Shown one piece after another: positions 2,849 through 55,989 of a DNA stretch of 64,000 nucleotides (positions are counted from its first letter, which is position 1; each line of letters begins with the position of its first letter). This DNA is from Fidelibacterota bacterium (GTDB lineage Bacteria > Fidelibacterota > Marinisomatia > SCGC-AAA003-L08 > TS1B11). Under the pieces are notes generated by a model, which saw only the letters and a list, made by a program, of their open reading frames with translations, had not been told where the DNA came from and did no database searches. Position numbers and translations under genes: made by a program. The stretch lies in NCBI GenBank assembly GCA_004124295.1, contig SCKI01000006.1:62001-126000 (forward strand), read 5' to 3'.

Positions 2849-3082
2849 ATGTATATGGAATTCGACCCTGAGTCCATGCGGCAAATTTCTGCCGCGCTCG
2901 GAGATGTAGTTCAAAGAAACCAGCGTTCGCTTTCAGTTGCCGACCGCCTCGCCCTCGAAGAGGCGAAGCGTTTCTTGGAAATCCAAGCTTCGAAGCCCTT
3001 GCGAAACCGCGAGATAATCGAAGCGATAGGCTCGGCGATTTCGGTCGTCTTGAGAGTATTTGGAATCTGGGAGAACCGGTGA
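2849..3082 (+). CDS. Small retron-associated protein, function unknown
   Basis: The ORF encodes 77 residues, or 75 if the second ATG at 2855 is used. The second ATG is better placed behind the AAGGAA sequence at 2843-2848. The protein is charged and helical in its first 50 residues. It then ends in a hydrophobic or amphipathic stretch (REIIEAIGSAISVVLRVFGI, about residues 54-73). The stop overlaps the GTG start of the reverse transcriptase (GTGA at 3079-3082), so the two are probably translationally coupled. I recognise no family. By position between the retron RNA and the RT it is the only candidate partner or effector. Confidence 0.65.
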   Translation: MYMEFDPESMRQISAALGDVVQRNQRSLSVADRLALEEAKRFLEIQASKPLRNREIIEAIGSAISVVLRVFGIWENR

Positions 3083-4278
3083 CCCATCTCATGGAAAATT
3101 TCTCAAGCACTATGAAAATCGGCTTAGCCATATCAGATCTCAGAAAGCGAAAGGGCTTCCAACAGAAGCCCTTCGCTCTTTTATGTGGTATTAACCAAGG
3201 CTATCTCAGCCAAGTTGAATCGGGGAAGCGGGAGCCCTCGCAATCCGCCCTCGAAAAAATTGCCGCGGTGCTGTCCGTTCCCCTTCCCCTTATTTACCTC
3301 CATGCAGCTGGTCCTGAAGATATAAAAGGGCCGGAGTATCTTGCCCTCGTAAAAGAAATTGATGAGCTGTTTTTGCACCATACGGTGCTTTCTGCCACCC
3401 GCGAAAAAAAAGGCAGAATCCCAACTTACATCACCAAGCTTCTTGGCATGCCCAGGGATACCATTCTCGAAATAGCCTCAACGGCAGCCTCCTATTATCA
3501 CCCATTCGAACAGCCCAAAACGGATAAACGCGGCAACCCGGTGCTTCAAAATGGTAAGCCAAAACTAAGGAAACTACACAGTGTGGGGGAGCCCCTGAGG
3601 TTCGTACAAGATAAAATAAAGGAAAATATTTTATCGGTAATCGATTTTCCCGACGCTCTTTACGGCGGCATCAAAGGTAAAAACAACATTCTCAATGCGA
3701 AAAGGCACCTTGGCAAGAAATTCGCTTTCATAACAGATATAAAAGATTTCTACCCTTCGATTAAGCCGAAAATGGTGTATGATGTATTTGTGAAACTTGG
3801 ACACCCTCCAAATGCGGCGAGAATCCTCACTTTTTTAACTACCGTGGGCGGTGAATTACCCCAAGGGAGCCCCACCAGCTCCTATTTAGCTAATCTCGCC
3901 TTTATTGAAACAGATGTTTTATTGCTCGATTTCTGCCGTAGGCATAGACTCACATACACTCGGTATGTAGACGACCTCACCTTCAGCTCATCTCAGGATT
4001 TCAAGAAGCATTCCTACGAAATTGTGTCGATCATTAGCAGATCCGGATTTCACATAAACCATAGAAAAACTGCCTACAAAGTCGGCCCAATAGAAATCAC
4101 CGGCATCATCCGCAGAAATAACTCATTGTCTGTACCTGAATATGTGATGGAGAAGATGAATGAGCATGGCCGAGGGGACCGTTCTAGGGAAGGTCTTGCC
4201 AGGTACGCAACAAGAGTAAATGAGAAAAATTCGGCGGCTCAAAAAACACTGGCGGCAACTAAGAAACGCAAGCAGTAA
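3079..4278 (+). CDS. Retron-type reverse transcriptase fused to N-terminal XRE-type HTH
   Basis: The protein has 399 residues. Residues about 12-75 form an XRE-like HTH (LRKRKGFQQKPFALLCGINQ, then SQVESGKREPS). The reverse transcriptase follows from about residue 170. Visible motifs are NAKRH (206-210), FITDIKDFYPSI (217-228), LPQGSPTSS (260-268), the catalytic YVDD (296-299) and ITG (340-342). NAxxH and the VTG-like ITG are hallmarks of retron RTs, which copy the msd part of their own RNA into a branched RNA-DNA. An in-frame HTH replaces the usually separate partner. The GTG start overlaps the preceding stop; ATG 3091 or 3112 are alternatives. Codon use is more AT-rich than in flanking genes, suggesting transfer. 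Confidence 0.9.
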   Translation: MTHLMENFSSTMKIGLAISDLRKRKGFQQKPFALLCGINQGYLSQVESGKREPSQSALEKIAAVLSVPLPLIYLHAAGPEDIKGPEYLALVKEIDELFLHHTVLSATREKKGRIPTYITKLLGMPRDTILEIASTAASYYHPFEQPKTDKRGNPVLQNGKPKLRKLHSVGEPLRFVQDKIKENILSVIDFPDALYGGIKGKNNILNAKRHLGKKFAFITDIKDFYPSIKPKMVYDVFVKLGHPPNAARILTFLTTVGGELPQGSPTSSYLANLAFIETDVLLLDFCRRHRLTYTRYVDDLTFSSSQDFKKHSYEIVSIISRSGFHINHRKTAYKVGPIEITGIIRRNNSLSVPEYVMEKMNEHGRGDRSREGLARYATRVNEKNSAAQKTLAATKKRKQ

Positions 4279-4920: not shown

Positions 4921-5040
4921 TGACTCAGGACCCGTCTACGTCCGTCGAGAGCCGGACTACGCCGGGCAAGCTGCCACTGTGGACTAAGGACCCGTCTACG
5001 TCCGTCGAAAGCCGGACTACGCCGGGCAAGCTCTGGACTA
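4921..5040. repeat. Two tandem 60-bp repeats
   Basis: Two successive 60-bp units each contain ggacccgtctacgtccgtcg and ccggactacgccgggcaagc, differing at a few positions. A shortened inverted copy lies at about 10446-10481. The units are partly palindromic. Confidence 0.85.
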
Positions 5041-5072
5041 ATAACTAAGCACTAAAGACTAACGACTACGGA
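5035..5072. repeat. Degenerate ggactaa/taactaa words
   Basis: The run ctggactaataactaagcac, then aaagactaacgactacggac, ends at the 3' end of the esterase gene. It is one of several word-like spacer repeat families in the window. Confidence 0.6.
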
Positions 5073-6083
5073 CTAATGACTATGGGCCAGCGCCCCGGCC
5101 ACCGCCTGCAAACTTTCCCGGTAGCGGTGGTTGATGCCCCGATGGCCGCCGTCGTGTTCCTCGTAATGGTGCGCGATGCCCAGCGCCACCAGCCGCTCCA
5201 CGAAAATGCGCGCCCCCAAATGGAGGCCGTACTCGTCCCGGGTCCCGGCGTCGAGCCACAGGAGGGTCAATGACCCCAGCGCGGCCGCGTGGGCCTGATC
5301 CTCAAGCATGCGGATGGGATCGTGGGCCAGCCAGCGCTCCCACACGGCCTCCCGGATGCGGCCGGAGGGGAGCTCAAAGGGCAGTTCGATTTTCGTGCCG
5401 TCGGGCGAGTAGGCCGCCGCCATGGCGATGATGTTCAGGGCCGGGATCAACGGTCCCTTGTCCCGGGCGGACGAGAACTGCTCCAGGAAAGGGGTCACCC
5501 CGCCGGCCTCATTGAGGGCGTTGACGGCGGCCGGGAAATCCTGCAGATAGCCGTAGGTAAAGTACATATCGCCGCTGTGGCTGGCGGCCGCGCAGAACAG
5601 CTCGGGATGCTTCATCGCCAGGGTCAGGGCGCCATATCCGCCGGACGATTTGCCAAGCACGCCCCGGTGGTCCCCGGTGGGGAGCGTTTTGAGCTGCCCG
5701 TCGATGAAGGGGATGATCTCAACCGTGAGGTAGTCTGCATAGGGACCGGTGGCCGTCGAGTTGAGGTACTGGCTGCCCCCGAGGCGCGTAAAGCAGTCGG
5801 GCATGACCACGATCACGGGCGGAGCCTCGCCGGCAGTGATGAGGCCGTCCATCTGCTCCGGGAGGTTTTCGTCCCACACGCTGAAGCCAGCCATGTTGGG
5901 TCCCGTACCGGTGAAGCCGGCCAGGACGTAGATGACCGGGTAGCGGTCGGCCCCCTGTTCGTAGCCCGGCGGCAGATAGACCGGAAACCGGCGCCGGTGG
6001 GGATCGCCGAGGGGATTGTCGCGGAGCAGGTCGCTGTCGTGCTCCAGCCAGATCAGGGTGCCGTTTAGGGGTCGGTTGTACAG
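5073..6083 (-). CDS. Esterase of the enterochelin esterase-like alpha/beta-hydrolase family, 5' end damaged
   Basis: The continuous frame reads GTLIWLEHDSDLLRDNPLGD, RYPVIYVLAGFTGTGPN, VIVVMPDCFTRLGGSQYLNS, then the nucleophile elbow LGKSSGGYGAL and a late HDGGHRG histidine. This is the serine/histidine arrangement of putative esterases. The only in-frame ATG is internal (5894). A good ATG at 6088 is in another frame that stops at once after MPCTTDP. Adding one C to the CCCC run near 6067-6070 would join MPCTTDP to LNGTLIW. The start therefore looks frameshifted, by mutation or sequencing error; a CTG at 6083 is the alternative used here. The substrate is unknown. Confidence 0.75.
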   Translation of the reverse strand: MYNRPLNGTLIWLEHDSDLLRDNPLGDPHRRRFPVYLPPGYEQGADRYPVIYVLAGFTGTGPNMAGFSVWDENLPEQMDGLITAGEAPPVIVVMPDCFTRLGGSQYLNSTATGPYADYLTVEIIPFIDGQLKTLPTGDHRGVLGKSSGGYGALTLAMKHPELFCAAASHSGDMYFTYGYLQDFPAAVNALNEAGGVTPFLEQFSSARDKGPLIPALNIIAMAAAYSPDGTKIELPFELPSGRIREAVWERWLAHDPIRMLEDQAHAAALGSLTLLWLDAGTRDEYGLHLGARIFVERLVALGIAHHYEEHDGGHRGINHRYRESLQAVAGALAHSH

Positions 6084-44938: not shown

Positions 44939-46066
44939 ATGGCCCTCGTCCCGCCGCATATCCAGCAGCTGGCCCCCTACAAGGCCGGCAAACCGGCCGA
45001 GGAACTGGCCCGGGAGCTGGGCCTGGAGCGGATCGTAAAACTGGCTTCCAATGAGAATCCCCTCGGTCCCTCGCCCAAGGCGCTGGCCGCAGCCGCCACG
45101 GCCCTGGCCCAGAGCCACCGCTACCCCGATCCAGCGGCCTACGAACTTCGCTCTGCCCTGGCGGACCGGTTCCAAGTGGACCTGGAGAACGTGATCACCG
45201 GCAGCGGCAGCGAAGGGATCATGGCCACCATTCTGCGGACCTTCCTGTTCAGTGACGACGAGATGATATCCGCCGCCAACAGCTTCATCGGCTTCCGGGT
45301 GCTGGCCCACGCCAGCGGCCGCCGGGTGCACTGGATACCGATGCGGGACTACCACTACGATCTGCCGAGGCTGGTGCAGGCCATCAACGACCATACCAAA
45401 ATCATCTACCTGGCCAATCCGGACAACCCTACCGGGACCTGTTTTAGCAGCGCGGAATTTGAAGCCTTCATGGCCGCAGTACCGGAGCGGGTGCTGGTGA
45501 TTCTCGATGAAGCCTACTTTGAATACGCCCGCGACCGGGACGATTATCCCGATTCGATGCGCTACCGGTTCGACAACGTCATCACCTTGCGGACCTTCTC
45601 CAAGGCCTACGGCCTGGCCGGGCTGCGGGTCGGCTACGGCTTCGGCCACCGGGACCTGATCGGCAACCTGCTCAAGGTGAAACTGCCCTTTGAGCCTTCC
45701 CGCGTGGCACAGTCGGCGGCGCTGGCGGCACTGGGGGATCACCCGTTTCTGGAGTCCACGCTGGAGGCCAACCGGACCGGCATGGCCATGCTCACCGAGG
45801 CCCTGGCCGGGCTGGGACTGGAACTGATACCCTCGAAGGCGAACTTTGTGACCCTGGTCCTGCCCAGCGAGGCGCAGGCTGTGGCGCTGGCCGGGGAGCT
45901 GTTGAAGCGGGGCGTGATCCTGCGCCACCTGGGGGCCTTCGGCTGGCCGACACTGGTGCGGGCCAGCATTGGTTTGGCGGAGGAAAATGAATACCTTATT
46001 GAGCAACTGGTAGACGTGCTGGGGGAGATCAGCAATCAGCGATCAGCGATCAGCGGTCAGCCTTAA
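44939..46066 (+). CDS. hisC: HisC-type histidinol-phosphate/aromatic aminotransferase
   Basis: The 375-residue class I/II aminotransferase has LASNENPLGPSPKA, the PLP motif DEAYFEYA, NPDNPTGTCF and the lysine in TFSKAYGLAGLRVGYG. HisC enzymes often also transaminate tyrosine and phenylalanine. Standing directly before the 4-hydroxyphenylpyruvate dioxygenase gene, it may supply that enzyme's substrate. The C-terminal residues EISNQRSAISGQP are coded by a degenerate repeat of the spacer and are not part of the conserved family. About 30 nt of the gene's 3' end (45980-46008) reappear at 46527-46555. Confidence 0.9.
   Translation: MALVPPHIQQLAPYKAGKPAEELARELGLERIVKLASNENPLGPSPKALAAAATALAQSHRYPDPAAYELRSALADRFQVDLENVITGSGSEGIMATILRTFLFSDDEMISAANSFIGFRVLAHASGRRVHWIPMRDYHYDLPRLVQAINDHTKIIYLANPDNPTGTCFSSAEFEAFMAAVPERVLVILDEAYFEYARDRDDYPDSMRYRFDNVITLRTFSKAYGLAGLRVGYGFGHRDLIGNLLKVKLPFEPSRVAQSAALAALGDHPFLESTLEANRTGMAMLTEALAGLGLELIPSKANFVTLVLPSEAQAVALAGELLKRGVILRHLGAFGWPTLVRASIGLAEENEYLIEQLVDVLGEISNQRSAISGQP
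45980..46008 (+). repeat. 29-bp direct repeat, left copy (hisC 3' end)
   Basis: gaggaaaatgaataccttat, then tgagcaact, occurs identically at 46527-46555. The two copies bracket the S23-like gene and its repeats. Confidence 0.9.
46027..46062 (+). repeat. Left degenerate repeat of S23 cassette 1
   Basis: atcagcaatcagcgatcagc, then gatcagcggtcagcc: seven-letter words atcagcg repeated. It codes the tail of HisC and is matched in inverted orientation by 46479-46505. Confidence 0.75.
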
Positions 46067-46083
46067 AGAGGAAATGGAATCGA

Positions 46084-46443
46084 TTGAAGAACTTCCGTGA
46101 TCTGAAGGTATGGGGGAAGGCGCACAGCCTTACCTTAAATATTTATAGTGCGACGGGAAAATTTCCGCAGCGGGAGATTTACGGCCTCACCAGTCAACTG
46201 CGCAGGGCAGCGGCATCCATACCCACGAACATTGCTGAAGGATGTGGTCGCGGCTCCGACCGTGAATTGGCCCATTTCGCGCAGATAGCCGCTGGATCGA
46301 CAAGTGAGGTCGACTACCTGCTTCAATTGGCCCATGACTTGGGATATTTGACATCCGAGACTTATCAGGACCTCCAAAGCCAAGCTGTGGAGTCGAGAAA
46401 AATGTTGGCCGCCTTTATCGGAACCCTGAGGTCTGCAGATTGA
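46084..46443 (+). CDS. Four-helix-bundle (S23 ribosomal intervening-sequence-like) protein 1
   Basis: The start is TTG 46084 after gaggaaat; no nearby ATG fits. The 119-residue product has the S23/bL12-type bundle marks FRDLKVWGKAHSLTLNIY, QLRRAAASIPTNIAEGCGRG (the conserved NIAEG) and an amphipathic C-terminus. These proteins occur as insertions in 23S rRNA genes and as free-standing genes; their molecular job is unknown. It is bracketed by degenerate repeats in inverted orientation and by a duplication of the hisC tail, suggesting insertion as a unit. Confidence 0.88.
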   Translation: MKNFRDLKVWGKAHSLTLNIYSATGKFPQREIYGLTSQLRRAAASIPTNIAEGCGRGSDRELAHFAQIAAGSTSEVDYLLQLAHDLGYLTSETYQDLQSQAVESRKMLAAFIGTLRSAD

Positions 46444-46478
46444 TCAAGCATCAAGGGGCAATTTTTAGCACTCTTTTT

Positions 46479-46505
46479 GGCTGAACGCTGACGGCTGAAG
46501 CCTGA
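46479..46505 (-). repeat. Right degenerate repeat of S23 cassette 1
   Basis: On the minus strand it reads tcaggcttcagccgtcagcg, then ttcagcc, the same word family as the left side but inverted. Confidence 0.7.
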
Positions 46506-46526
46506 TTACCGGCCATTGGTTCGGCT

Positions 46527-46555
46527 GAGGAAAATGAATACCTTATTGAGCAACT
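46527..46555 (+). repeat. 29-bp direct repeat, right copy
   Basis: Exact copy of hisC positions 45980-46008, now in the leader of the HPPD gene. Confidence 0.9.
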
Positions 46556-46578
46556 CGGAGAGGTTTGGAGAGAAATCA

Positions 46579-47673
46579 ATGACTGATGCCAGCAAGCTTA
46601 CCGGCTTCCACCACGTCGAATTTTTCGTCAGCAATGTACTCCAGGCGGCCTACTACTACCAGCGGGTCTGGGGTTTTAAGGTGCAGGCCTACCAGGGACT
46701 GGAGACCGGTGTCCGGGACCGGGCCAGCCTGGTTCTTCAGCAGGGCAAGGTGCGCCTGGTGCTAACGGCGCCGCTGCAGCCGGACGGCGAGATAAACAGC
46801 TTTATCAACCGCCACGGAGATGGCGTGCGGAATGTCGCCTTCGGCACCGACGATGCCGCCGCGGCTTACAGCATGGCCTTGGCCGGCGGGGCCGAATCGG
46901 TGGCGGCCCCGGAGCCGCGGTCCGACGAGCATGGCTCGGTGGTCATCGCCACCATCCGGGCCTATGATAATGTGCTGCACTCCTTCGTCCAGTCTAACGG
47001 CTACACGGGTCCCTTTCTGCCCGGCTTCGGCGAGTATTCCGGCCCGGATATTTCCTCCGGCGACGTGGGGCTGAAGATCATTGACCATGTGGTCCACAAC
47101 ATGCCCGATGGCAGGATGGAATCCCAGGTTCAGTTTTACCAGGATACCCTGGGGATGCACCGCTTCTGGACCGTGGACGACAAGGATATCCGCACCGAGT
47201 ACACTTCCCTGCGGTCCATCGTGGTGGCCAACGGCAACGAAGTGGTGAAAATGCCGGTCAACGAACCGGCGGAGGGGCTCAAGAAGAGCCAGATCCAGGA
47301 ATTCATCGATTTCAACATCGATGCCGGGGTGCAACATGTGGCCCTGCTGACCGGCGACATCATCGCCACCATTGGGCAGTTGCGGGCCAACGGGGTCGAT
47401 TTCCTGGAGGTCCCCGATACCTACTACGAGGAGTTGGCCGACCGGGTCGGCCCCCTGGATGAGGATATGGATGTGCTGCGCAAACTGCGCATCCTGGTGG
47501 ACCGTGACGAGGACGGCTACCTGCTGCAGCTCTTTACCAAGCCGGTGCAGGGGCGGCCCACCTTCTTTTTCGAAGTGATCCAGCGGAAAGGGAGCCGATC
47601 CTTCGGCAAAGGGAATTTCAAGGCCCTGTTCGAGGCCATTGAGCAGGAGCAGGCCCGGCGGGGAAATTTGTAG
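46579..47673 (+). CDS. hpd: 4-hydroxyphenylpyruvate dioxygenase
   Basis: The start ATG at 46579 follows ggagagaaatc; the upstream frame is in the duplicated hisC tail. The 364-residue enzyme has two VOC-type halves. Iron ligands are likely the histidines in IIDHVVHNM and DAGVQHVALLT and the glutamate of FFFEVIQRKG. It converts 4-hydroxyphenylpyruvate to homogentisate in tyrosine breakdown. Homogentisate dioxygenase and fumarylacetoacetase genes follow in order, supporting the assignment. Confidence 0.95.
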   Translation: MTDASKLTGFHHVEFFVSNVLQAAYYYQRVWGFKVQAYQGLETGVRDRASLVLQQGKVRLVLTAPLQPDGEINSFINRHGDGVRNVAFGTDDAAAAYSMALAGGAESVAAPEPRSDEHGSVVIATIRAYDNVLHSFVQSNGYTGPFLPGFGEYSGPDISSGDVGLKIIDHVVHNMPDGRMESQVQFYQDTLGMHRFWTVDDKDIRTEYTSLRSIVVANGNEVVKMPVNEPAEGLKKSQIQEFIDFNIDAGVQHVALLTGDIIATIGQLRANGVDFLEVPDTYYEELADRVGPLDEDMDVLRKLRILVDRDEDGYLLQLFTKPVQGRPTFFFEVIQRKGSRSFGKGNFKALFEAIEQEQARRGNL

Positions 47674-47689
47674 GCCCCCTACGTCACCT

Positions 47690-47779
47690 CTACAAGAGTC
47701 CGCAGTCCATCAATGTTGAGGATAGCACGATAGTTGAAACCAGTAACCAGAAACTTGAAACTGAAAAGTAGACCGAATC
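47690..47779. repeat. Spacer with degenerate gaaac words
   Basis: gatagttgaaaccagtaacc, then agaaacttgaaactgaaaag, between the HPPD and homogentisate dioxygenase genes; same family as 51497-51607 and 53700-53755. Confidence 0.55.
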
Positions 47780-48931
47780 ATGCCCCACTATATTGAACGG
47801 GGGTCCATACCCCCCAAACGCCACACCCAGTTCCGGGACGCGGGCGGAAATCTGCGCTATGAGGAGCTCCTCAGCAGGCAAGGATTCTCTGGCGATCACA
47901 CCAACATGTACCATCTGCGGATGCCGACCCGCATGGCGGCGGTGGGACGCTACATGGACCGGCCCCTCAAGCGGGCTGGGGAGGTCCCCCATCGCCACCG
48001 CCATCTGCGTACCGCCGTGGTCAACAGCACCGGCGGACCGGTCGGCAGCCGGCGGGTGCTGCTCTACAACCAGGACGTGGTCATTTCCAAGGCCCATCCC
48101 AACGAGGACCTGAACAGTTTCTACCGCAACGGGCAGGCGGACGAACTGATCTACGTCCAGACCGGCGCGGGAACCCTGAGCACCAACCTGGGCCTGATCC
48201 GCTTCAAACCCGGTGACTACCTGGTGATTCCCCGGGGCATCATCTGGCAGATGACCTTCGACTCGACGCCGAGGCTGCTGGTGATCGAGACCCGGGGGCC
48301 GCTGGAACTGCCGGACAAATACCTCAGCCGTCACGGCCAGTTGCTGGAGCACGCCCCCTACTGTGAGCGTGACATCCGGACCCCGGAGTTCCAGCCTCCC
48401 AACGATGAGGAAGGGGAGTTCATGGTGATGCTGCACATGGGGGAGGGCATCCAGGAGTACATCTACGCCCAGCATCCGTTCGATCTGGTGGGTTGGGCCG
48501 GACAGTGCTATCCCTGGGCCTTCAGCATCCACGATTTTGAACCCATTACCGGACGCATCCACCAACCGCCGCCGGTGCACCAGACCTTCCAGGCGCCGGG
48601 CCTGGTGATCTGTTCCTTCGTGCCCCGGCTGTTCGATTACCACCCCGACGCCATCCCGACGCCGTATTACCACAGCAACGTCGATTCGGAGGAGGTCATT
48701 TTCTACAGCAAGGGAGAGTTCATGAGCCGCCAGGGAATCGAGGAGGAGTCGATCACCTACCATCCTATGGGCCTGCCGCACGGACCCCAGCCGGGCAAGT
48801 ATGAAGGGTCCATCGGTGTAAAGGCGACCGATGAGCTGGCGGTGATGATCGACACCTTTGCCCCCCTCACCCTGGCCGCTGCGGCCCTGGGCATCGATGA
48901 CGAGGACTACCCCATGTCGTGGTCAGTCTGA
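47780..48931 (+). CDS. hmgA: Homogentisate 1,2-dioxygenase
   Basis: The 383-residue cupin-type dioxygenase has YQTGFGNE-like regions replaced here by IERGSIPPKRHTQFRD. The diagnostic parts are HRHRHLRT, EDLNSFYRNGQADELIYVQT and MGLPHGPQPG with HSNVDSEEVIFYS for the iron site (His, Glu, His). It opens the homogentisate ring to maleylacetoacetate. Its neighbours HPPD and fumarylacetoacetase place it in tyrosine catabolism. Length is somewhat short against the 430-450 residues of many HmgA proteins, as in the bacterial short form. Confidence 0.9.
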   Translation: MPHYIERGSIPPKRHTQFRDAGGNLRYEELLSRQGFSGDHTNMYHLRMPTRMAAVGRYMDRPLKRAGEVPHRHRHLRTAVVNSTGGPVGSRRVLLYNQDVVISKAHPNEDLNSFYRNGQADELIYVQTGAGTLSTNLGLIRFKPGDYLVIPRGIIWQMTFDSTPRLLVIETRGPLELPDKYLSRHGQLLEHAPYCERDIRTPEFQPPNDEEGEFMVMLHMGEGIQEYIYAQHPFDLVGWAGQCYPWAFSIHDFEPITGRIHQPPPVHQTFQAPGLVICSFVPRLFDYHPDAIPTPYYHSNVDSEEVIFYSKGEFMSRQGIEEESITYHPMGLPHGPQPGKYEGSIGVKATDELAVMIDTFAPLTLAAAALGIDDEDYPMSWSV

Positions 48932-48947
48932 TGGGCGGGCGCACAGC

Positions 48948-49943
48948 ATGAAACTGGTCAGCTTTAAATCTGCCGGACGGCCCCGGCTGGGGGCCATCAA
49001 GGATGGGGCGGTGGTGGACCTGGCCCTGGCAGCGGGTGAGCTGGGCGCCACTTTGCCGGACGACATTATGGCCCTGCTGAAGCTCGGCGAGGGGGGCCTG
49101 ACCGCCGCCCGGGAACTGCTCGAGCGCGCCGATCCGGGGGCTCCCTACGCCCAGCCCCTGGAAACCGTGCCGCTCATGGCGCCCGTCCCCAGGCCGGCCT
49201 CGGTCAGGGACGGCTACGCCTTCCGGCAGCACGTGGCCACGGCCCGCCGCAACCGGGGCCTGGAGATGATCCCCGAGTTCGACCAGTTCCCGGTATTCTA
49301 CTTTACCAACCACCAGGCCATCTTCGGGCCGGGCCCGGTGCAGGTCCGGGAGCGCCACCTGGAGCATCTCGACTTCGAGCTGGAATGCGCCATCGTCATC
49401 GGCAGGGAGGGACGCGATATCCCGGCAGGTAAGGCAGATGACTACATCGCCGGCTACATGATCATGAACGACCTGTCGGCCCGGGTGATGCAGATGGAGG
49501 AGATGAAGCTCAATCTCGGCCCGGCCAAGGGCAAGGACTTCGCCACCACCCTCGGCCCCTGGCTGGTGACCCGGGACGAACTGGCCGGCCAGCGCATTGC
49601 AGGTCCCGACGGCGAGCGCTACAATCTGAAGATGACGGCCCAAGTGAACGGTGTGCAGGTATCTGAGGACAATTTGCAGAACATGAACTGGACTTTCGGG
49701 CAGATCATCGAACGGGCGAGCTACGGTGTCAATCTGCACCCTGGCGACGTCATCGGGTCGGGGACCTGCGGCACCGGCTGTTTCCTGGAGCTCAACGGCA
49801 GCGGCATCACCGACAACCAATGGCTGCAGGACGGGGACACGGTCGAACTGGAGATCGAAGGGTTGGGACGGTTGAAAAATGACATAGTTTTCCGGGATAT
49901 GGATGATGTCAAGAGTCCAGAGTCCAGAGTCGGAGAGACTTAG
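48948..49943 (+). CDS. Fumarylacetoacetate hydrolase-family protein (fumarylacetoacetase)
   Basis: The start ATG at 48948 (MKLVSFKSAGRPRLGAIKDG) is 16 bp after the hmgA stop; the open frame upstream overlaps hmgA and is spurious. The 331-residue protein has the FAH fold marks: FYFTNHQAIFGPG, ELECAIVIGREGRDIP with the metal-binding ELE, GYMIMNDLSARVMQ and SGTCGTGCFLELNG. It cleaves fumarylacetoacetate to fumarate and acetoacetate. The last residues SPESRVGET are encoded by the degenerate agtccagagtc repeat that runs into the gene. Confidence 0.9.
   Translation: MKLVSFKSAGRPRLGAIKDGAVVDLALAAGELGATLPDDIMALLKLGEGGLTAARELLERADPGAPYAQPLETVPLMAPVPRPASVRDGYAFRQHVATARRNRGLEMIPEFDQFPVFYFTNHQAIFGPGPVQVRERHLEHLDFELECAIVIGREGRDIPAGKADDYIAGYMIMNDLSARVMQMEEMKLNLGPAKGKDFATTLGPWLVTRDELAGQRIAGPDGERYNLKMTAQVNGVQVSEDNLQNMNWTFGQIIERASYGVNLHPGDVIGSGTCGTGCFLELNGSGITDNQWLQDGDTVELEIEGLGRLKNDIVFRDMDDVKSPESRVGET
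49911..49940 (+). repeat. Left degenerate repeat of S23 cassette 2
   Basis: caagagtccagagtccagag, then tcggagagac, overlaps the 3' end of the fumarylacetoacetase gene and is matched in inverted orientation after the S23-like gene. Confidence 0.75.
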
Positions 49944-49966
49944 CCAGTGGCATTGGGCTAGCGGAT

Positions 49967-50356
49967 TTGGCAGTTTTCGAAAGTTTCGAGGATATTGAAG
50001 CTTGGCGAAAGGGACGCGAGCTTGTTAAAAAGATTTACACAATGACATCCAAGGGTGATTTTGCTAAAGATTTCGGGCTGAAAGACCAGATTCAACGAGC
50101 CTCAATTTCTATCATTTCGAATATTGCAGAGGGTTTTGATCGAGGTGGCGATAAGGAATTTATCCAGTTTCTCTCTGTGGCCAAAGGCTCGGCCGGCGAA
50201 GTCAACGCACAGCTTTATGCCGCAATTGACCTGGGCTATATTACCAGGGCAGAATTCGAGAAGGCGAGCAAACTGGTGAATGATATTCGACAATTAATTG
50301 GCGGGTTGATCATGTATTTGAAGGGCTCAACCCTTAAAGGGTATAAGTTCAAGTAG
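49967..50356 (+). CDS. Four-helix-bundle (S23 ribosomal intervening-sequence-like) protein 2
   Basis: The 129-residue protein reads FEDIEAWRKGRELVKKIYTM, DQIQRASISIISNIAEGFDR and SAGEVNAQLYAAIDLGYITR, again with the conserved NIAEG. It is a homologue, not a recent copy, of the gene at 46084. Its codon use is AT-richer than that of the catabolic genes around it. It lies between degenerate repeats in inverted orientation, inserted between the fumarylacetoacetase and the flavin reductase-like gene. The start, possibly a TTG at 49967, is weak. Function unknown. Confidence 0.88.
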   Translation: MAVFESFEDIEAWRKGRELVKKIYTMTSKGDFAKDFGLKDQIQRASISIISNIAEGFDRGGDKEFIQFLSVAKGSAGEVNAQLYAAIDLGYITRAEFEKASKLVNDIRQLIGGLIMYLKGSTLKGYKFK

Positions 50357-50389
50357 GCCTTTTTCAGACATATCAGGACTTGATTTGCC

Positions 50390-50472
50390 GGACTCTGGAC
50401 CCGGGACTCCGGACTCTGGACCCTGGACTTTTGACTCCGGACTCTGGACCCTGGACTCTTGACTCCGGACTG
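50390..50472 (-). repeat. Right degenerate repeat of S23 cassette 2
   Basis: On the minus strand agtccggagtcaagagtcca, then gggtccagagtccggagtca and on, is a 12-13 bp imperfect tandem repeat. It matches the left copy in reverse and ends 2 bp before the next ATG. Confidence 0.8.
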
Positions 50473-50474
50473 TT

Positions 50475-51344
50475 ATGCCATATAGAAACCTAACCCCCTC
50501 CGCCCTCCCGCTAAAAGACCGCCACCAGTATCTCCTGGGCGGCGTCGGTCCCCGGCCCATCGCATTTGTCGGCAGCCTGAGTGCCGCTGGCCTCCCGAAC
50601 CTGGCGCCGTTCAGCTTCTTCAACGCCTTTGGCGCCAACCCGGTGATCATCGGCATCTCGCCGGCCTACAGCGGCCGCACCGGGGAGCCGAAGGACACCA
50701 TGCTCAACATCCAGGCCACCGGCGAGTTCACTGTGTCCATTGTGAGCTATCCGATGGTCCGGCAGATGCAGTTGGCCGCCGGCGAGTATCCGCCAGGGGT
50801 GAGCGAGTTCGAGGTATCGGGCCTGACTCCGCTGCCGAGCCTGAAGGTGTCCCCGCCGGCGGTGGCCGAGTCGCCCTTCGTCATGGAGTGCACATTCGAC
50901 CGGCACATCGAGCTCGGCGGCGATAAAGGCAGCGGCAACCTGTTGCTGGGCGAGGTGGTGCAGTACCGCATCAAGGAGGAGGTGTTCGGCGACGACGGGC
51001 ATATCGATCCCTATAAGATGGACCAGGTTGGGCGGCACAATCTGGGCTGGTATTCCCGCTCCCGGGAAGGGCTGTTCAGCATCGACCGCCGCCAGACCGA
51101 CCAGGCCGTTGGTTTTCAGGCGCTGCCCGCCGATTTGCTGACCTCCACGGTGCTCACCGGCAACGATCTGGCCCTGCTGGCCGGTGTGCCGGAAGTGCCC
51201 CAGGATGCCGAGGTGCCGGGGGACTTGAACGCCCGGCTTGAGGGGATGTCCACCGGGGACCGGCACCGGGAGATCAAGGGTCTCATTGAGGCCGGAGATT
51301 TGGAAGGAGCCTGGGCGGTTGGGCTGATGGAGGATGCAGGATAA
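50475..51344 (+). CDS. Flavin reductase-like FMN-binding split-barrel protein
   Basis: The 289-residue protein has YLLGGVGPRPIAFVGSLSAA, NLAPFSFFNAFGANPVIIGI and MLNIQATGEFTVSIVSYPMV. These are the FMN-binding split barrel shared by flavin reductases and pyridoxamine oxidase relatives. It is commonly found beside FAH and homogentisate genes, where it may supply reduced flavin or act on a pathway intermediate. No ribosome site precedes the ATG; the start is immediately after the spacer repeat. Its role in this tyrosine cluster is inferred. Confidence 0.85.
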   Translation: MPYRNLTPSALPLKDRHQYLLGGVGPRPIAFVGSLSAAGLPNLAPFSFFNAFGANPVIIGISPAYSGRTGEPKDTMLNIQATGEFTVSIVSYPMVRQMQLAAGEYPPGVSEFEVSGLTPLPSLKVSPPAVAESPFVMECTFDRHIELGGDKGSGNLLLGEVVQYRIKEEVFGDDGHIDPYKMDQVGRHNLGWYSRSREGLFSIDRRQTDQAVGFQALPADLLTSTVLTGNDLALLAGVPEVPQDAEVPGDLNARLEGMSTGDRHREIKGLIEAGDLEGAWAVGLMEDAG

Positions 51345-51607
51345 AAACAGTGGCAGTAGCAGTACCAGTTGGCAGTAATCTGCCTTACTGAGCTGGCTTG
51401 CCCTGAGTCCGCCAGCTGGCGGACCGAAGAACCTCCAGCATTGGCTCGTAAGATTCCTCGTTCCACTCGGAATGACAGAGGTGGTAAGACGGATCGTAAC
51501 TCGAAACTCGAAACGGGTTATTGGATGTTGGATGAAGGATGAAGATGCCGGGCAGGCCCGTAAATCGTAACTCGTAACTCGTAACTCGAAACCTGAAACC
51601 TGAAACC
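51345..51607. repeat. Spacer of mixed degenerate repeats
   Basis: Four word families follow one another: cagtggcagtagcagtacca (51351-51370), a cgccagctggcg palindrome, attggatgttggatgaagga, and taactcgtaactcgtaactc with cctgaaacctgaaacc (51555-51605). It abuts the TTG start of the acetoacetyl-CoA synthetase. No gene is seen. Confidence 0.65.
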
Positions 51608-53587
<1,980 letters not shown>

Positions 53588-53795
53588 CAGTGGGCATTGC
53601 CGGGGGACTGCCGGGTAATGAAAATTGTAAATTGTCGAATGAATATCGGAGCGCGTGGATTCTTGGCCTTTACAAGGAAGAGCAGAGCAAGCCCGGAACG
53701 CGAAACCCGAAACCCGTAACTCGTAACTCGAAACCCGAAACCTGAAACGAAACCCTCATGCCCCCTGACCCCAAAATGACCATCGCGGTTCGCCC
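53588..53795. repeat. Spacer with cgaaacccgaaac repeats
   Basis: The stretch 53695-53755 repeats cgaaacccgaaacccgtaac, then tcgtaactcgaaacccgaaa, and 53580-53605 shows cagtgggtagcagtgggcat. No gene is seen apart from the start of the next one. Confidence 0.6.
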
Positions 53796-55718: not shown

Positions 55719-55989
55719 CTTGAGGAAGTTGCAGTCGGCAGTGGCAGTTGGCAAGGGGGGAGTAGCCAGCATCCAATATCCACCATCCACCATCCAGGTG
55801 ACCAAACTCCTACCAAGATCGACTAAGATTGACACTATTTGCCGGATACGGCGTGGATACGGGATTGAAAAAGTCGGGGTGGGGACGTTTATCCCAAAGG
55901 CATAGCTGAAGGAAGCCCCCCGATACGTTGACTTCCCGACCAGAAAAGCGTCCGCCTGACATATCCTTTGGTGCGAAAATATCATGGGG
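55719..55989. other. Spacer between tRNA-Glu and the Avs-like gene
   Basis: It holds gcagtcggcagtggcagttg (55732-55751) and atccaccatccaccatccag (55780-55799) word repeats, then about 190 bp with no recognised gene or attachment-site copy of the tRNA. Confidence 0.55.

Follow-up and report, generated by a model that had tools for sequence, protein, structure and literature searches.

MITE-like elements and RAYT/REPIN systems are short elements with inverted ends. The S23 protein family is known from another setting: intervening sequences (IVSs) carrying an S23 ORF occur in the 23S rRNA of Leptospira, Coxiella and others. The terminal stem measures 28 bp in Coxiella, rRNA IVSs were long ago proposed to be mobile, and a Xanthomonas S23 protein has been reported as a toroidal pentamer (PMC4990558). 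Heptamer repeats have also been described. GGGAATC heptamers form 70–75 convergent inverted pairs per Xanthomonas genome and GGGGATT arrays are found in Nostoc (PMC4692102); the TAACTGA heptamers of Beggiatoaceae, Cyanobacteria and Bacteroidetes are 7-nt tandem repeats in intergenic DNA, scattered across the phylogeny (PMC4679880). Our literature search, which had subscription journals outside its coverage, found no paper linking S23/four-helix-bundle genes to heptamer repeats or to mobility.

We analyzed the window, a stretch of 64,000 nt of contig SCKI01000006.1 from a Fidelibacterota bacterium (genome G000), in which an S23 gene cassette (cassette 2) lies between the genes for a fumarylacetoacetate-hydrolase-family (FAA-hydrolase) protein and a flavin-reductase-like protein, that is, outside rRNA. 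We consider it probable (roughly 0.75) that cassette 2, at ~560 bp, is a small mobile element whose family is spread across bacterial phyla and some archaea; the unit would consist of an S23/IVP gene between convergent, ~7-nt arrays that are G-rich on the inward strand and act as terminal inverted repeats. Such cassettes share with rRNA IVSs the protein family and the position of an ORF between complementary ends (PMC4990558). However, IVSs reside in rRNA, whereas S23 cassettes reside at the ends of protein genes and have arms made of heptad tandem arrays; moreover, the cassettes show no signal of selection for an RNA stem, and a 5-bp target duplication was seen in a homologous element. No 23S motif was present in any fetched S23 locus, and positions 45500–52000 of the window gave no Rfam match. 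Seen in this way, the rRNA IVS is perhaps a particular form of a more widespread element.

The Xanthomonas GGGAATC pairs resemble S23 arms in their G-rich 7-nt period and convergent polarity; that study ties the GGGAATC and GGGGATT arrays to neither S23 nor mobile elements (PMC4692102), whereas here a gene family lies between the arms and the word varies per locus. The TAACTGA repeats differ from S23 arms in being direct repeats of a single word, with S23 unmentioned (PMC4679880). The likeness to MITE-like and RAYT/REPIN systems lies in S23-less relatives with the same arms on Nostocales plasmids, but the S23 element encodes S23 and no Y1 transposase, and its ends are tandem words that differ between lineages. 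MITEs are non-coding, whereas this element has an S23 ORF under purifying selection. In common with insertion sequences and transposons it has terminal inverted repeats and, in the homologous plasmid element, a target duplication (GTAAT), but it lacks a transposase or recombinase of its own. With respect to Avd, the accessory protein of diversity-generating retroelements, the family model is not passed (the cassette 2 protein gives no match to it), and a linked reverse transcriptase with template and variable repeats is absent; the window ORF list has no reverse-transcriptase ORF adjoining cassette 2. The S23 element thus behaves as a small transposable element would and has its gene in common with the IVSs, but it has the full defining features of neither.

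Cassette 2 and the other S23 genes of the genome

The coordinates of the features are given in Table 1. An earlier note, made from the letters of the window alone, had reported an S23-like gene bracketed by inverted repeats at the end of the FAA-hydrolase gene, and this description was confirmed: the best arms of cassette 2, GTCAAGAGTCCAGAGTCCAGAGTC and GACTCTGGACCCTGGACTCTTGAC, are 24 nt long, mutually inverted and 96% complementary, and the last codons of the FAA-hydrolase ORF lie within the 5′ arm. The repeats are inverted as stated; however, the word had been given as the 11-mer agtccagagtc, and the unit is really 7 nt (AGTCCAG), with the 3′ array longer than the 5′ array. Only the S23 four-helix-bundle ORF is encoded between the arms, with no transposase or recombinase. 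Among solved structures, the nearest to its product was 2gsc_A (E = 3.7e-16), which is XCC0516, the Xanthomonas S23 homolog; 2rld is also among the nearest.

Table 1. Positions of the S23 cassettes, their neighbors and the repeat arrays within the window
Feature	Position	Strand	Remarks
Upstream gene, FAA-hydrolase family	48948..49943	+	PF01557; stop at 49941-49943
Cassette 2, 5′ arm	49908..49931	+	~3.4 copies of heptad AGTCCAG, 7-nt period
Cassette 2, S23/IVP four-helix-bundle protein gene	49967..50356	+	129 aa from TTG start; PF05635 118 bits, TIGR02436 113.6 bits
Cassette 2, 3′ arm	50390..50471	+	~11.7 heptads GGACTCT/GGACCCT/TGACTCC; inverted relative to 5′ arm
Downstream gene, flavin-reductase-like protein	50475..51344	+	PF01613; start 4 nt past cassette 2 3′ arm
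Direct repeat GAAAATGAATACCTTATTGAGCAACT, copy 1	45983..46008	+	outside cassette 1
Cassette 1, 5′ arm, GATCAGC heptads	46027..46061	+	inside 3′ end of aminotransferase (hisC-like) ORF
Cassette 1, S23/IVP gene	46084..46443	+	119 aa; PF05635 131 bits
Cassette 1, 3′ arm, GGCTGAA heptads	46479..46505	+	inverted
Direct repeat GAAAATGAATACCTTATTGAGCAACT, copy 2	46530..46555	+	outside cassette 1
Solo heptad arrays	2351-2381, 5035-5082, 47736-47754, 51494-51608, 53692-53755, 55727-55796		many words; away from S23

Cassette 1 (46027–46505) has the same geometry with another word (GATCAGC/GGCTGAA), as had been noticed from the letters, and the S23 proteins of the two cassettes are 34% identical. The genome has five S23 genes, four of which are bracketed by inverted arrays; the exception is L005. 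We also observed a 26-mer direct repeat, GAAAATGAATACCTTATTGAGCAACT, outside cassette 1. Two further copies lie at the orthologous site in G001, a genome of the same genus (L065), and all four copies are identical, despite an identity of only ~75% in the DNA around the two sites. Elsewhere in 60 relatives the 26-mer was not found at up to three mismatches. As it occurs only at cassette 1 and the orthologous G001 site, direct-repeat flanking was rejected as a general feature of S23 genes.

To quantify the geometry, the 5′ flank of each S23 gene was aligned to the reverse complement of its own 3′ flank, with mispaired flanks as the null. Cassette 2 scored 45, a value reached by only 30 of 39,006 mispaired S23 flanks. 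In the class of the window, 78 of 98 S23 loci exceeded the 95% point of the null (paired mean 30.1; permuted 17.7, sd 0.37), compared with 14 of 98 for the direct orientation. The inverted signal was also present in 70 of 78 S23 loci of an independent set of named genomes from many phyla (Cyanobacteria, Clostridia, Planctomycetes, candidate-phyla bacteria and Methanophagales archaea, among others) and in 170 of 198 loci (86%) of a non-redundant many-phyla set. The geometry that cassettes 1 and 2 share therefore characterizes the S23 family in many phyla. No S23 gene was found in an annotated phage collection; IMG/VR contigs do carry some, with inverted arms at 28 of 32 loci. The earlier note had proposed that such arrangements be set against controls: a score of 24 was reached by 86% of S23 genes and by 8% of the remaining ORFs of these loci. 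When every ORF was scanned for inverted periodic arms, almost all of those returned were S23 genes or their neighbors. Approximately 14% of S23 genes, L005 among them, had no clear inverted pair.

Some individual loci showed additional structures. On a Phormidium contig, a non-S23 ORF located 2 kb from an S23 gene, with no Pfam family above cut-off, is bracketed by inverted GGGAGTA-type arrays (L182, 171–822). In the Clostridia loci L178 and L173 the inverted repeat continues inward past the heptads; L178 has an inner hairpin at both ends, in which the stem sequence differs and the pairing is kept.

The best period was 7 nt in 119 and 8 nt in 24 of 160 arms, and the inward strand was G-rich in 152 of 159 loci. 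The 5′ arm starts at a median of 4 nt from the end of the co-directional upstream gene; both neighbors were co-directional with S23 at 129 loci and opposed at 21. Examples are the spacers nuoM-like/nuoN-like (L003), cas6/cas4 and, on the opposed strand, nrdA/nrdB. Entry would thus be at the stop codon, the 3′ end, of a gene, usually within an operon and with S23 reading in the direction of its neighbors. Because of this placement, S23 is probably translated from host transcripts. The protein is constrained (median dN/dS of 0.07 over related pairs). Once linked to heptad arrays, the genes annotated as "four helix bundle" or "S23 ribosomal" (PF05635/TIGR02436) in many phyla gain a testable job, as a component of a stop-codon-targeted mobile element, and heptamer arrays, long a separate puzzle in bacterial genomes, gain a candidate source.

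In L003, a ~40-bp segment with the 3′ arm is directly duplicated past the S23 gene (1913–2008). On plasmids of several cyanobacteria, elements have landed repeatedly between cas6 and cas4 of type I-D CRISPR loci (L334, L345, L346 and L341); this spacer holds two distinct S23 elements, each with its own word, as well as a solo AATTACG array and one further inverted-repeat element.

Words, arms and solo arrays

The word proved specific to the locus, a point that the earlier note had marked for checking. The 5′ flank of an S23 gene scored 30.3 against its own 3′ flank and 18.4 against other S23 loci of the same genome, the latter being the level found between genomes. At unlinked sites, a word was shared by 45% of S23 pairs with at least 65% protein identity and by 0.2–0.5% of pairs below 35%. 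Since arm similarity rises with S23 protein identity at unlinked sites, the arms travel with the gene; that is, the word belongs to the S23 lineage.

At orthologous sites with a different word in each species, the two arms of a locus nevertheless agree with one another. Both arms of cassette 2, for example, use the unit AGTCCAG/AGTCCGG in the window and AGTCCTG in G003. The arms thus remain alike as the word drifts, indicating that some process or constraint links them. In some close orthologous pairs the same-side arms are as alike as the two arms of one locus, which is expected under slow drift, and the comparison is weaker at low S23 identity because some of the "same sites" may be chance neighbors. 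These results bear on the proposal that unrelated words in one architecture reflect a process rather than common ancestry of the flanks. The process half is supported, in that arms remain matched while the word changes; the other half is not, as related S23 genes share words at unlinked sites and words are therefore not independent of ancestry.

The matching suggests that DNA-level copying between the arms keeps them alike; one arm might serve as template for the other, by way of a hairpin or template-switch intermediate or of gene conversion. At positions where the units vary, the 3′ arm has the in-register letter in 67% of cases and the letter of the neighboring unit in 20%, a result that is only suggestive because the register was chosen by best alignment, which biases it. 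A more speculative extension is that the ends are rewritten by the S23 element itself: a reaction that depends on S23 would extend the 7-nt units on one arm and copy them to the other via a hairpin intermediate, each lineage would drift to its own word, and many unexplained heptamer arrays of bacteria would be products or remnants. We regard this extension as doubtful.

Solo heptad arrays are frequent in the window genome, in which 464 kb were used for the repeat counts: 4.5–10.9 per 100 kb at lag 7, compared with 0–0.5 at lag 8. Their words, e.g., GAAACCT and GGATGTT, are used by none of its five S23 genes, and none of the solo arrays tested there had an inverted partner. A few GGATGTT arrays are also present in two S23-free genomes of the same family. 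Solo arrays therefore need no nearby S23 gene, and we do not claim that S23 makes them. The number of S23 genes was rejected as the driver of solo-array density: G049, with 26 S23 genes, has ~1 lag-7 array per 100 kb, versus the above density in the window genome with five. Consequently, the expectation that such words would concentrate near S23 genes failed for the words themselves, solo arrays being frequent and also present in S23-free relatives, but not for the inverted pairing, which was seen only at S23 loci in the stretches examined.

The complementarity of the arms could instead reflect an RNA stem as in rRNA IVSs, in which RNase III would cut the S23 message from the operon transcript and selection for pairing would keep the arms complementary. 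RNase III does cut the complementary ends on either side of the S23 ORFs of rRNA IVSs (PMC4990558), the cassettes are mostly co-directional within operons, and cassette 2 RNA folds with the arms paired (z = −3.1); however, such a value arises because the arms are complementary anyway. The arm mismatches spoke against the stem. Across 160 loci, 142 were G.U-compatible versus 187 A.C transitions on the sense strand, the opposite of pairing selection, and an RNA stem leaves both the heptad units and the one-sided G richness unexplained. The arms show no sign of being maintained as an RNA stem, and we consider this explanation unlikely. A new question follows, namely by what means two separated arrays hold on to one drifting word if RNA pairing is not involved.

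Filled and empty sites

We compared sites with and without the cassette. In relatives of the same order, the FAA-hydrolase/flavin-reductase pair has neither S23 nor arrays between the genes. At the same site, G001 has only unrelated solo arrays and no cassette 2, and G003 has an orthologous cassette 2. Since G003 has the cassette and other relatives lack it at that site, the window copy may itself have been mobile. In this lineage, the cassettes are old and mostly vertically inherited: cassette 1 is also found in G001, and cassette 2 in G003 and not in G001.

A homologous plasmid element shows S23 and its two arms entering together, with a target duplication of 5 bp. S23 with its arms occurs on plasmid C of Trichormus variabilis and on one Scytonema plasmid, at a place where several otherwise 97–98% identical plasmids have none. 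The site is clean between Trichormus plasmid C and a Microchaete plasmid; the insert of 428 bp (414 bp in Scytonema) is bounded by the arms and, in Trichormus, flanked by GTAAT twice, i.e., a 5-bp target duplication over the TAA stop of the upstream gene. The closely related filled Scytonema site and further empty plasmids agree with the insertion of a unit. At the same site, a Nostoc plasmid has a decayed copy and a Brasilonema plasmid has an S23-less hairpin with the same word, and the same S23 gene with its arms was found at other plasmid sites. Further plasmid sites, not resolved to the base, also carry the element in one plasmid and lack it in another; a possible second target duplication, TTCTA (L353), may belong to the array, and only GTAAT is unambiguous. 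In the class of the window, a 584-bp S23 unit, 96% identical, occupies different sites in G049 and G095. G049 was rejected as an empty site for the copy at site Y of G095, as the flanks are not homologous. Of the alternatives offered in the earlier note, "mobile or repeat-generating", the first holds for the homologous elements, since S23 and arms were inserted as one unit on plasmids; the second was not borne out.

A less probable explanation than the RNA stem is that S23 genes drop into pre-existing heptad arrays, which would be ordinary slippage products, the inverted geometry being supplied by the site. Solo heptad arrays are indeed common in the window genome, and many bacteria have heptamer arrays (PMC4679880, PMC4692102). 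However, insertion into an array predicts direct flanks, which were far rarer than inverted ones in the class loci, and the solo arrays here lack an inverted partner. In addition, empty sites have no arrays, and related S23 genes bring their own word to unlinked sites. The direct-orientation controls, the empty sites and the solo arrays together led us to reject this explanation.

For the mobile element that we favor, the S23 protein may bind or bridge the arms. No transposase was linked to the S23 element, and strand cutting and joining would be performed by an enzyme in trans, as S23 has no recognized nuclease domain. That S23 acts like its distant relative Avd, with a reverse transcriptase in trans copying the element (retro-mobility) and reverse transcription writing the arms, is very improbable: the operon-strand bias, a weak NCBIfam Avd match of the cassette 1 protein that fails the model (20.4 bits, cut-off 80) and an HTH-reverse-transcriptase ORF within the window are in its favor, but the PF00078 family search found a match in only 14 of 171 class genomes, with none in the S23-rich G049, G090 and G061, so that most S23-bearing genomes of the class have no reverse transcriptase. 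The ORF in question (3079–4278, + strand) has an N-terminal helix-turn-helix (HTH_3) followed by RVT_1 and is the only PF00078 match of its genome.

A further observation concerns a ~200-bp S23-less element with the same GAATTCA/GGAGTCA arms, inner hairpins and TTGA-like borders (L348, 1501–2101; L350–L352). One copy interrupts an S23 gene in Nostoc N6, and others lie at further places on Nostocales plasmids.
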